From Symmachiella macrocystis (GTDB taxonomy: Bacteria; Planctomycetota; Planctomycetia; Planctomycetales; Planctomycetaceae), in NCBI RefSeq assembly GCF_007860075.1, contig NZ_SJPP01000004.1:1-64000 (forward strand): a stretch of 64,000 nucleotides of DNA, in the 5' to 3' direction. This document shows, one piece after another, positions 22,951 to 26,117 of this stretch. A program made the position numbers and the translations under genes. Every line of letters starts with the position of its first letter. Position 1 is the stretch's first letter. A model generated the notes under the pieces. The model was given only the letters and a program-made list of their open reading frames with translations, did no database searches and had not been told where the DNA came from.

Positions 22951-23583
22951 TCATGTGAGATGATTGAGTTCCGACACGCTGTCCGACAAACTGGCAAACG
23001 AGGGAAACACAACAATGCGAAATCGTGTTATCGAGCCGATGCGAAACCAAATGCCGGCACTCGGACGGAACACCTCCTGTGCAATCTGCCGTCCTTCCTT
23101 GACCCTGAAAATTGACTGCCTCACGTCGTGACGAAACAGCCGGATGAGAACCCGGTCCGAGTATTGGCTCATTCTTAATGCGGCCGCCTCGAAACGGGCA
23201 ATGTCGATCACATTTGCCGCGACATTCTGACAACGAGCGTTGCGGGTAAGATAAACGACAAATTGCAAAGCGTCGTCTCGATGTTTGTGGCATCCTTGCG
23301 GGCAAAACGTTTCGGAGTACGTTGAAAATATTTGTCCGAACGATTTGCCGAGTGCGCGACAGGTATAAGGCAGCAGGCTGCGCACCTCATCGGCCCGTTT
23401 TCTGCGCAACGATTGAGCAAAACATTCGATTTGTTGAACTGACACCGCGGTAAGCTGAACCGCCTCCACCGTCGATAATCCCAAAGTTACGGACGTGTCG
23501 TCGGGATCAGCTAGAAACTCCGCGCGCAACGTCGCATCGGTGTATAACTTCGCCAAAGCTTGTTGCAATTGCTCTAAACCCAT
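22951..23583 (-). CDS. MNIO (DUF692) partner protein, possible substrate-recognition subunit
   Basis: 210 residues. Its N-terminus (LQQALAKLYTDATLRAEFL, followed by a proline/asparate segment and GLSTVEAVQL) resembles the small helical domain of Nif11-like leaders and LigA-type proteins, and the middle (RSLLPYTCRALGKSF) resembles proteins encoded next to DUF692 genes in other bacteria, for example the SCO6045-like group as I recall it. The start overlaps the MNIO stop by about 10 bases, a strong sign of coupled translation and a working complex. By analogy with BufC/TglI-type partners it may bind the peptide substrate for the oxidase. There is no signal peptide or membrane segment. Family assignment is tentative. 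Confidence 0.6.
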   Translation of the reverse strand: MGLEQLQQALAKLYTDATLRAEFLADPDDTSVTLGLSTVEAVQLTAVSVQQIECFAQSLRRKRADEVRSLLPYTCRALGKSFGQIFSTYSETFCPQGCHKHRDDALQFVVYLTRNARCQNVAANVIDIARFEAAALRMSQYSDRVLIRLFRHDVRQSIFRVKEGRQIAQEVFRPSAGIWFRIGSITRFRIVVFPSFASLSDSVSELNHLT

Positions 23584-24413
23584 TGACGTTGTGCCTTGCC
23601 AATATGCCGCACCCTTTTCAATTCGTCTATCAGATTCTCAAAAGGGGGCAGATTCTTATCTCGCTCAAGAATAACACCCTGGACCGTGAACCGTTCCAGC
23701 ACCTGTTCCATCAGTGACCAGACTTCCGCAGGCGCCGGTTGTGAATGGCTGTCGATCAACGTACCGTCGTGCCAGTGCCCTCCCGCGAAGTGCAATTGCA
23801 CGATCCGCTCCATAGGTAGGCGATCTAAAAATGCAAGCGCGTCGAAGCAGTGATTGGTTGAATTGGTAAATAGATTTGTGACATCGAGTAGCAATCCGCA
23901 GTCGGTCCTCTCTAAGACTTCAGTGAGAAAGGCTGCTTCATCCATTTCGGAGTACGGAAACTGGACGATGTAAGTAATGTTTTCCAAGATCAACGGCGTG
24001 TCGATCCGGCTGCGCACGTGATCGATGTTGCGGCAGAGTGTCTCTATCGATTCATGAGTGGTTGGGAGTGGTGAGAGATGCCCAATCGGCACGCCGCCGG
24101 CACGTGTGAATGCGATGTGTTCACTCCACCACGGGGGCTGGAGATGATTGATTAACTCCGCCAATTTGTTGAGATAGTCCTCATCAATACCTTCGGCACT
24201 TCCGAGAGAAAGATCGAGTGTATGGGGAATGATCGGAAAATGGTTGGCCAATAGATCGAGTTCACGTCGTTTTTCACGGGAGGCGTCGAGATAATGATCT
24301 GCGACGATTTCGACGAAATCGACATCCTCGCGATGCAGAAACAATTCGCTGAGGAAAGGCTCGCGAAACCCGATCCCGACGCCTAAGTTTGGAAATTCAG
24401 CGAAACGCGACAT
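23574..24413 (-). CDS. MNIO family oxidase (DUF692, multinuclear non-haem iron)
   Basis: About 279 residues. The start chosen is the ATG at 24413: AGGAG at 24422-24426 is 8 bases upstream, whereas the ATG at 24419 is too close, and codons further upstream only overlap the Gly/Cys tail of the preceding gene. The TIM-barrel family pattern is clear: LGVGIGFREPF, FVEIVADHYLD, LSLGSAEGID, WWSEHIAF, LILENITY, CGLLLDVTNL, IVQLHFAGGHW and a final GVILERDKN. His, Asp and Glu ligands for two or three irons are all present. Known members (MbnB, TglH, ChrH, BufB) modify cysteines in ribosomal peptides. The gene between a Gly/Cys-tailed membrane protein and the partner gene gives an obvious candidate substrate. 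Confidence 0.88.
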   Translation of the reverse strand: MSRFAEFPNLGVGIGFREPFLSELFLHREDVDFVEIVADHYLDASREKRRELDLLANHFPIIPHTLDLSLGSAEGIDEDYLNKLAELINHLQPPWWSEHIAFTRAGGVPIGHLSPLPTTHESIETLCRNIDHVRSRIDTPLILENITYIVQFPYSEMDEAAFLTEVLERTDCGLLLDVTNLFTNSTNHCFDALAFLDRLPMERIVQLHFAGGHWHDGTLIDSHSQPAPAEVWSLMEQVLERFTVQGVILERDKNLPPFENLIDELKRVRHIGKAQRQWV

Positions 24414-24432
24414 TGCCATAACTCCTGTGTTA

Positions 24433-25356
24433 TTAATCACCACACCCACCGCAGCCGCCTCCGCCCCCTCCACACCCGCCGCCGCAGCCACCACTGCCAC
24501 CGGCGGCAGCTTGTTTGAACATATCGTGAAAGGATGAGTATGCTGTCCCCTCTAGAATCGTGACGCCAAAGATACCCATCGTCAGCAGAAGCGCGGGATC
24601 GGGCTCACTGGTTGCATTGATCCCTTCGGATGCCTTCACACGATCCTGCAGCTTACCAAAAGCAAGTTGCAATTCCTCAAGATACCGTTTCCCACGTTGC
24701 GAGAGCCGCGGAAGCTGGCAGATTGCGGCAAGTACAAGGAGCGAGATCGCACCAATTGCAATCAAAAACCCCACATTCGTTCGTCCAGCTGACAATGCTA
24801 CCGCGAGCTTGAATCCGCCTAGCCCCACAATGATCAGACCGCCCACGAGAAAGGTGGGGACATCGAATTTCACTTGTGATGACGAGGTCAGGAGTTGGGA
24901 TTGTTCGAGCTCGTCCTGCCAGTCTTCAAAATAGGAATTCAGTTCGTTAGGCAACGATTTGAATATCTCGCCCGCAGCGAGTGGAGAGGAGAAGTAGTCG
25001 AATACTTCTCGCCGCATTGCCGAAAGGTGACGAGGAGAGGGATGGTCGGCGGCGCGCTTGATCTGCGAAGGTTGGGTCTCGAAAACCAGAATTTTCTTTG
25101 CTTCGTTCAGAACCAAGTAGCCTCGTTGGATCAGGTCGAAAATCAATAATCGCGTGACTTCATTTTCACCTCCCCGTAAAAACGCAGCTTTATAGGGACC
25201 CGGATTTTCGGGAATCTTGGGGAGAGGCAAGTCTCTTGTTGAATCCCGGTTATGAACCCTCCACCAACAACCCACAAGCGTACTCGTAACAACAACTCCA
25301 TAGATCACGAGAAATTGCGGACCGGGCATGTTCACGATTGCAAATGGCAAATGCAT
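24433..25356 (-). CDS. TIGR04222-like membrane protein with Gly/Cys-rich C-terminal tail
   Basis: 307 residues. One membrane helix lies near 10-30, then a cytoplasmic domain with YKAAFLRGGENEVTRLLIFD and LIQRGYLVLNEAKK (a winged-helix-like patch), then two helices near 165-215 and a final helical part. The last 22 residues are GGSGG followed by CGGGCGGGGGGCGGCGD: four cysteines in a glycine ribbon. As I recall, TIGR04222 proteins commonly end this way and lie beside DUF692 genes. Here the MNIO gene begins 19 bp downstream. I infer that the tail is the MNIO substrate, making this a membrane-anchored RiPP-like precursor or a metal site, rather than a released peptide. The alternative is an unmodified metal-binding tail. 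Confidence 0.75.
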   Translation of the reverse strand: MHLPFAIVNMPGPQFLVIYGVVVTSTLVGCWWRVHNRDSTRDLPLPKIPENPGPYKAAFLRGGENEVTRLLIFDLIQRGYLVLNEAKKILVFETQPSQIKRAADHPSPRHLSAMRREVFDYFSSPLAAGEIFKSLPNELNSYFEDWQDELEQSQLLTSSSQVKFDVPTFLVGGLIIVGLGGFKLAVALSAGRTNVGFLIAIGAISLLVLAAICQLPRLSQRGKRYLEELQLAFGKLQDRVKASEGINATSEPDPALLLTMGIFGVTILEGTAYSSFHDMFKQAAAGGSGGCGGGCGGGGGGCGGCGD

Positions 25357-25373
25357 GATGGTTACCCCAACAT

Positions 25374-26117
25374 CTAGATCGTATCGATGAGTTCGGCCGC
25401 CCGATGAACGGTCCGCATGAAGGAATCGTAAAGTTGTTTCAACTCATCCGTGGTCAATTCTAAATCGCCACGCCGTAGCGACAGGCACTTAAGCACCGGC
25501 CCGACATCGAGTCCGAGTATTTCGGCTCGTTCAAAGACTTCTTCGTTGTTCGCAGGTGTCGTTCCCGTTTTCAACTCGACGAGCACTCTGAGGCTAATAA
25601 CGAATGATGCGACCCCTTGGATCAAGGTTTTTTCAACTCGCTCAAAATAGGGTGCTTGTTGCAAGTAAAAGTGATGCAGGCGAAGCATGAGGTTCTTGAT
25701 TTCCTGCTCGCAACGCAATCGCAGATGATCGTGCGAAATCTGCAAATTGGCAAGCACGTCCCGGCCCTGCAATAGACGGTGGCGACGCTGCATACCGAGA
25801 AACTTTATCGGAAAGACGTCGGTTGACCGGCGCAATTCGTCTTCGCTGAGCAAAAGTACCGCCAGGCCAAATTCCCGGCATCCCACCTGAACAGGTATAG
25901 CAGCCTGATCGAGCAGTTCGACCGAGACAGCTTTGAGTACGACCATGACATTGACGGAAGTATTCTCTGGTGTGAAATCCTCACCAACAAATCCGCCGTA
26001 AAGCACGATCGAGATGATCTGATCACCGAGCGTGCTCTGCATCTTCTCACAGAACTGGTCCAAACCGGATTGAACTGCCGCCGGCAACTGACCGTCCAAA
26101 GATTCATTTGAGGCCAT
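25374..26117 (-). CDS. Nucleotidyltransferase-fold protein with degenerate active site
   Basis: 247 residues from ATG 26117, which has AAGG 8 bases upstream; the longer frame to 26243 enters repeat sequence. The N-terminal part has the shape of an MNT nucleotidyltransferase: QIISIVLYGGFVGEDF, then TSVNVMVVLK. The usual GS...D-x-D is replaced by GG...S-V-N, so the metal-binding aspartates seem lost. The C-terminal 130 residues are helical (NLMLRLHHFYLQQAP, VASFVISLRVLVEL), as in HEPN or substrate-binding domains. It ends 17 bp before the TIGR04222-like gene and so opens the four-gene MNIO cassette. It may be a scaffold or non-catalytic nucleotide sensor. Function unknown. Confidence 0.6.
   Translation of the reverse strand: MASNESLDGQLPAAVQSGLDQFCEKMQSTLGDQIISIVLYGGFVGEDFTPENTSVNVMVVLKAVSVELLDQAAIPVQVGCREFGLAVLLLSEDELRRSTDVFPIKFLGMQRRHRLLQGRDVLANLQISHDHLRLRCEQEIKNLMLRLHHFYLQQAPYFERVEKTLIQGVASFVISLRVLVELKTGTTPANNEEVFERAEILGLDVGPVLKCLSLRRGDLELTTDELKQLYDSFMRTVHRAAELIDTI

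Follow-up and report, generated by a model that had tools for sequence, protein, structure and literature searches.

An AadA-like protein with degenerate catalytic residues accompanies glycine-rich membrane-protein tails, with and without an MNIO enzyme

Why would a gene for a nucleotidyltransferase-fold protein stand in front of a membrane protein and an MNIO enzyme? This question is raised by a locus of Symmachiella macrocystis (assembly GCF_007860075.1, contig NZ_SJPP01000004.1), of which we analysed positions 1 to 64,000; this whole stretch of 64,000 nucleotides is called the window. Four minus-strand open reading frames (ORFs), all starting with ATG, lie here in the order nucleotidyltransferase-fold protein (NT), TIGR04222 membrane protein, MNIO and partner. 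The genes are separated by gaps of 17 and 19 bp and then share a 10-bp overlap, so the tight packing given in a preliminary description of the sequence is exact. The interpretation that we slightly favour is that the four genes form one tail-modification cassette. The NT would be a pseudo-nucleotidyltransferase handling a Gly-rich tail, and it would act together with an MNIO where this tail carries Cys. Because the same gene order recurs in other genomes, the cassette is more than chance, and an accidental neighbourhood was ruled out. The features of the cassette, in window coordinates, are as follows.

25374..26117, minus strand: NT-fold protein, 247 aa, predicted AadA-like fold, degenerate nucleotidyltransferase (sequence alignment, predicted structure)
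25950..25997, minus strand: remnant of the NT catalytic motif, residues 41-56, with GG for GS, and Ser54 and Asn56 in place of both Asp (alignment)
24433..25356, minus strand: TIGR04222 membrane protein, 307 aa, candidate substrate (81.8 bits against a cut-off of 43; hydropathy)
24436..24501, minus strand: C-terminal Gly/Cys tail GGSGGCGGGCGGGGGGCGGCGD with 4 Cys, candidate modification site (translation; tails of relatives)
23574..24413, minus strand: MNIO enzyme (PF05114), 279 aa (303.1 bits; invariant His/Asp/Glu/Asn columns)
22951..23583, minus strand: putative MNIO partner, 210 aa, PME-type-2-like (gene place and absence of DUF2063)
23404..23574, minus strand: helical N-terminal region of the partner protein, residues 4-60, with a weak likeness to the Os17/NHLP RiPP leader domain (28.4 bits, under the cut-off of 40)

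We surveyed 392 genomes of the phylum and 170 genomes of the family, with G000, G384 and G461 present in both sets. In the phylum survey, TIGR04222 scored over its cut-off in 18 genomes, PF05114 matched 110 and the NT profile matched 75, many of the latter by short partial hits. Genome-wide NT searches score few candidates per genome, and an absence from them is not proof. MNIO adjoins TIGR04222 in eight of the 18 genomes (G000, G003, G202, G305, G161, G203, G210 and G301). NT adjoins this pair in G000, G161, G203 and G301, and also in G305, where the cassette is split by contig ends. In G384, G461, G257 and G387, NT and MNIO accompany a tail protein other than TIGR04222. Altogether, the phylum survey yielded 12 MNIO loci with a Gly/Cys tail, nine of them with NT (nine of 392 genomes). 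In the family survey, NT was found in 17 of 170 genomes, and ten loci in nine genomes have the order NT, tail protein (one or two), MNIO and partner (G000, G384, G461, G479, G555, G490 twice, G514, G560 and G506). The NT-fold gene, whose absence elsewhere had been named as a point that could overturn the preliminary description, is hence present in other such clusters. The NT-profile members L016, L017, L019, L027, L030 and L032 belong to loci that had been chosen for their TIGR04222 or MNIO, and their position beside MNIO is therefore not independent evidence. For G461, G257, G387, G305, G479, G555, G490, G514, G560 and G506, NT alone led to the locus. Since the tails other than TIGR04222 had been found through NT, we inspected another 41 MNIO loci, of weaker PF05114 score, among the matches listed, and none held a credible Gly/Cys-tail gene or an NT. 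Some of these stretches stop at contig ends, and 19 similar listed loci, the unlisted loci and the strongest-scoring MNIO loci, which may be bufferin-like, lie outside this inspection. The sole tail hit among the 41 (L205) was an arginine-rich frame judged spurious.

In some genomes the parts of the cassette are separated or damaged. The set of G224 is split, with NT and a 72-aa Cys-tail protein on one contig and MNIO and partner on another, with no tail gene in the 7-kb stretch read there; the NT of this genome is sister to the window NT (98/90). At one G490 locus (contig C49, L156:3017-5288), the NT gene is disrupted, its two frames lying about 1.3 kb from each other, whereas the remaining cassette is open. 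In G257 (L034:2702-3556), the MNIO is interrupted by a single in-frame stop, and a partner was not detected; this cassette is perhaps decaying.

MNIO is not the only company of NT. When named genomes were scanned with the NT alignment, 237 relatives were returned, of which 80 were kept. NT relatives occur in Brocadiaceae, other Planctomycetota, Desulfobacterota and Nitrospirota, and in one record titled Patescibacteria; records titled Deltaproteobacteria, assigned to Myxococcota by NCBI ranks, may reflect a naming artefact. We collected 116 distinct NT loci and dropped 16 that were partial or cut by a contig end, leaving 100 usable ones. We counted a gene as Gly-tailed when the last 80 residues of its product include 30 consecutive residues with 40% Gly or more. 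By this rule, a Gly-tailed gene comes next after NT in 81 of the 100 loci, namely in 27 of the 40 from the phylum set and in 54 of the 60 from the named genomes. The control in the same loci was one of 655 genes, all crude script-made calls. By script-called starts, 62 of the 81 Gly-tailed ORFs overlap NT. A TPM gene is next after NT in 76 loci (20 in the phylum set, 56 in the named set) and is mostly followed by LemA; at L040, Pfam identified the TPM domain (PF04536) and LemA (PF04011). At five further loci the rule overlooked a Gly-tailed TPM gene, at four of them because the overlap with NT was longer than permitted and at L146 because another frame was taken. Within the family survey, NT precedes a TPM gene in G055, G036, G231 and G286 and follows one in G548, and the G036 protein has no Gly tail. 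NT lacks a tail or TPM neighbour in G012, and only NT remnants were found in G032 and G519. In two genomes of family f19 (L062:1946-5437 and L064:4713-8150), NT is followed by a protein of more than 1100 aa that is not Gly-tailed; Pfam, run on L064 only, found POTRA, SurA and PPIase domains in it. The preliminary description had treated NT as a possible member of MNIO clusters. It does occur in other such clusters, but these are not its main setting: most NT loci seen hold Gly-tailed TPM-domain and LemA neighbours without MNIO. To our knowledge, no function is known for the Gly-rich tails that are common on TPM-domain and TIGR04222 membrane proteins. In the portions of the literature covered, nothing on NT with TPM or LemA stood among the matches listed, and the passages covered of PMC13236525 describe only that a TPM gene and lemA go up in a Flavobacterium sppA mutant.

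What kind of protein is NT? An AlphaFold2 model of the window NT, built from a 48-sequence alignment, reached a predicted local distance difference test (pLDDT) value of 92.6. Foldseek matched this model to AadA/ANT nucleotidyltransferases (best E 5.6e-7, template modelling score about 0.55), and VIA-align superposed it on them with Z 14.6 and a root-mean-square deviation of 4.2 over 220 residues. The window NT is thus predicted to have the two-domain nucleotidyltransferase fold of the AadA/ANT type. An aminoglycoside resistance gene was ruled out, as NT scores 14.2 of the 400 bits required for ANT(3'')-II and has lost the acids. Matches of the NT profile to triosephosphate isomerase, annexin and designed proteins were regarded as chance. 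Searched alone against Pfam, the window NT had no match, and four of ten relatives matched NTP_transf_2 at E up to 1 (best 7e-4). Among 48 members scanned at E up to 0.01, Pfam returned NTP_transf_2 in 11 (best 4e-4) and Polbeta in one, and NCBIfam returned ANT(9) in one and an unrelated model in another (best 0.002). NT is thus covered by no named family in Pfam or NCBIfam.

Active nucleotidyltransferases carry a GS motif and the acids [DE]x[DE]. The window NT has GG, S54 and N56 at these positions, that is, GS and both acids are gone; the alignment thus confirms the degenerate catalytic residues noted in the preliminary description. Across 117 aligned NT, GS is retained in 96 and the first Asp in 95, and the position of the second Asp holds Asn in 99 and Asp in four. 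This pattern looks conserved rather than decayed, and together with the AadA/ANT fold and with R133, E137 and K141, unchanged in all 48 rows of the NT alignment, it would suit a catalytically active NT that has a rearranged D-x-N site and nucleotidylates either the tail or some small molecule. We regard this as unlikely, given that the window NT lacks GS and both acids and that the NT of G384 and G461 have Asp42, Lys54 and Asn56. Moreover, we know of no active nucleotidyltransferase with Asn at the second acid position, which counts against such an enzyme. The N-terminal half of NT resembles the MNT antitoxin and the helical C-terminal half resembles HEPN/HI0074, as might be expected of a regulator or a toxin-antitoxin-like hitch-hiker. 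This origin is very improbable, because both halves lie on one chain and the usual place of the gene is on the same strand, directly before Gly-tailed genes.

Between G384 and G479, nonsynonymous (dN) and synonymous (dS) divergence of NT are 0.138 and 1.15, so that NT is under purifying selection, a point in favour of the proposed tail-modification cassette; the values for MNIO are 0.125 and 1.215. In a 79-row NT tree, all 16 NT of MNIO cassettes fall inside one set of 22 rows (97/89), which also includes two TIGR04222-only loci, the 72-aa mini-protein locus and three loci where NT has no tail neighbour. In the 13 rows of this Cys-tail set that were aligned, Lys stands at position 105 and Gln at 138. 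Among the other 104 rows, in which L058 and L061 are tallied despite belonging to the same clade, position 105 is Glu in 97 and position 138 is Arg in 99. The switch tracks one clade and therefore counts as one event. More tentatively, and with a probability that we would place somewhat below even, NT may represent an undescribed family of Gly-tail binders or modifiers present in several phyla and serving Cys-free tails. A change from E105/R138 to K105/Q138 would then have adapted it to MNIO-oxidised Cys tails, and the tail itself would be a portable tag on many membrane scaffolds.

On the side of the candidate substrate and its enzyme, the assignments are firm by profile score, as the window proteins exceed the NCBIfam cut-off for TIGR04222 and the gathering cut-off of 25 for PF05114. 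In agreement with the earlier claim, three membrane helices of the TIGR04222 protein pass a plain hydropathy cut, and a fourth is present in three relatives. Because of the three helices and the positive-inside charges, the window tail would be cytoplasmic; TIGR04222 tails are placed in the periplasm by Antoine et al. (PMC12452194). The tail is conserved while the scaffold changes: GCGGCG stands near the end of most tails (exceptions are G387 and G224), carried by TIGR04222 proteins, zinc-ribbon membrane proteins and a 114-aa protein (G257) whose N-terminal parts differ. None of four zinc-ribbon tail proteins scanned had an NCBIfam match; of two scanned in Pfam, one had no match and the other a weak zinc-ribbon match. 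These scaffolds weakly match TIGR04222 (E 0.0027 and E 0.00055, the matches including the tail) and may share its membrane half. Tail proteins occur in tandem in G555 and at both G490 loci. In eight genomes searched for GCGGCG at the DNA level, the pattern was not clearly commoner than its reversed control (3 vs 3 in G000), and the 11 fetched hits outside cassettes showed no credible gene end. An extra Gly/Cys-tailed ORF beyond the cassettes was seen only in G490: a 398-aa frame without a Pfam hit (L155:8701-9897), about 2.6 kb from the NT-MNIO cassette and possibly an additional tail bearer.

In the MNIO, H64, H99, E144, D177, N180, H208, D221, H223 and E250 are invariant across 18 sequences, and we take the conserved His, Glu and Asp columns to be metal-ligand positions, which are intact in the window enzyme. 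It stays under the NCBIfam equivalog cut-offs, with 255.1 of 310 bits for BufB and 218.4 of 360 bits for HvfB. The partner gene follows MNIO and has no DUF2063 hit, which would make its product a PME-type 2 partner; in G161 the partner was identified by gene place only. Hits to the Os17/NHLP leader (NF038399) at E up to 0.1 were found in six of nine partners, the best (1.3e-6) still below the cut-off, and the window partner did not reach it either (28.4 of 40 bits). In one member the N-terminal part resembles ApyI (E 0.041); a likeness to the borosin precursor SonA is not significant (E about 0.5). A profile search of PDB sequences with the partner found neither NGO1945 nor TglI, and a single-sequence structure model was unusable (pLDDT 30.5). 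In G301, the N-terminal part of the partner is fused to MNIO.

Several observations weigh against a single tail-modification cassette. The preliminary description had asked whether the NT gene is conserved in relatives. It recurs in nine of 12 tail-MNIO loci, but G003, G202 and G210 (three of 12) have a TIGR04222 tail and an MNIO without an NT match; the MNIO of G003 and G202 are close to that of the window (59 and 55%). The cassette is patchy in distribution, as no NT was found in two genomes from the genus of the window. After correction, 14 of the 100 usable NT loci lack a Gly-tailed neighbour: L010, L133 and L042 have a TPM protein without a tail or with a weaker one, L030 a truncated TIGR04222, L121 a TPM-LemA frame, and L062 and L064 proteins of PPIase/POTRA size, the rest having no such neighbour. 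Between the closer relatives G384 and G461, changes are too few for a statement on NT selection (dN 0.015, dS 0.018). Nine Gly/Cys-tailed TIGR04222 proteins have no adjoining MNIO, and four such genomes, G431, G332, G104 and G407 (completeness 95, 99, 66 and 81%), have no MNIO among the matches listed. Since G407 does carry NT, neither Cys tails nor NT require MNIO. Tails of this kind, and the published survey in which a third of TIGR04222 genomes lack MNIO (PMC12452194), would fit a tail that is structural or metal-binding as such, with the MNIO modifying another, unlinked or unannotated peptide. We give this little credence, as tail proteins built on three or more scaffold types (TIGR04222, zinc-ribbon membrane protein, 114-aa mini-protein) stand directly before MNIO, and the 41 weaker-scoring MNIO loci inspected among the matches listed, some of them cut at contig ends, have no credible Gly/Cys-tail gene or NT.

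Within the tail-modification cassette that we favour, the membrane protein would carry the low-complexity Gly/Cys tail, and MNIO and partner would oxidise some of its cysteines. The product would be a membrane-tethered, probably metal-binding tail and not a released peptide. The NT, its canonical catalysis lost, may handle the Gly-rich tail by binding, solubilising or presenting it, and its relatives would do the same job for the Cys-free Gly tails of TPM-domain proteins. An NT family that accompanies Gly-rich tails across phyla would offer a handle on those tails, and the variant with MNIO predicts an MNIO acting on a membrane-protein tail instead of a small peptide.

The surroundings of the cassette vary. 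Around 20 cassettes compared, flanking genes are common to the close trio G384/G461/G479, one large-protein group occurs at four loci in varying place and direction, and one pair is common to L019 and L027; no flanking gene keeps a fixed place across genera, and the borders of the cassette are therefore sharp. Nor did this comparison show a recurrent protease or exporter gene next to the cassettes, in keeping with the earlier remark that none is adjacent in the window. Directly after the window cassette lies a DUF5684 membrane protein with C-terminal leucine-rich-repeat matches (window:22106-22843), which was not found at the other cassettes compared. The only other MNIO match in the window's own genome, G000 (C1:3647027-3647806; L012:5905-7427), lies in a bufferin-like locus: the adjoining 157-aa ORF is rich in Cys, begins in a twin-arginine-like way and scores weakly for BufA2 (25.4 of 60 bits).

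Part of this picture is not new. Membrane-anchored TIGR04222 proteins with Gly/Ser/Cys tails have been put forward as putative MNIO substrates by Antoine et al. (2025, PMC12452194), who show an example from Pirellula staleyi and note PME-type 2 (non-DUF2063) partners. The word "nucleotidyltransferase" is absent from the main text of that paper, and our literature searches found no NT in MNIO clusters, in line with the preliminary description, which held such a gene to be undescribed there. What is new is the recurrence of NT in these cassettes, the change of scaffold under a kept tail, the company of NT and Gly tails, and an AadA-type fold with Asn. In the published TIGR04222-MNIO-PME-type-2 clusters, as far as that source describes them, tail protein, MNIO and non-DUF2063 partner have the same order; unlike those clusters, the cassettes described here include NT, zinc-ribbon and mini-protein scaffolds, tandem tails and an MNIO-partner fusion (G301). 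Bufferin clusters (BufA/BufB/DUF2063) likewise place an MNIO next to the gene of a Cys-rich protein, and BufB is the best NCBIfam match of our enzyme, whereas the cassette has an integral membrane tail protein, lacks a DUF2063 partner and does not reach the BufB cut-off. With the AadA/ANT(3'') and ANT(4') adenylyltransferases, NT shares the predicted two-domain fold, but it has lost their catalytic acids and is a neighbour of Gly-tailed membrane proteins. Finally, the TPM-domain and LemA operons likewise have a Gly-rich C-terminal tail with NT directly before it. Their tails have few or no Cys and no MNIO beside them, whereas the cassette tails bear Cys, and their NT mostly carry Glu105 and Arg138 where the Cys-tail set has Lys105 and Gln138.

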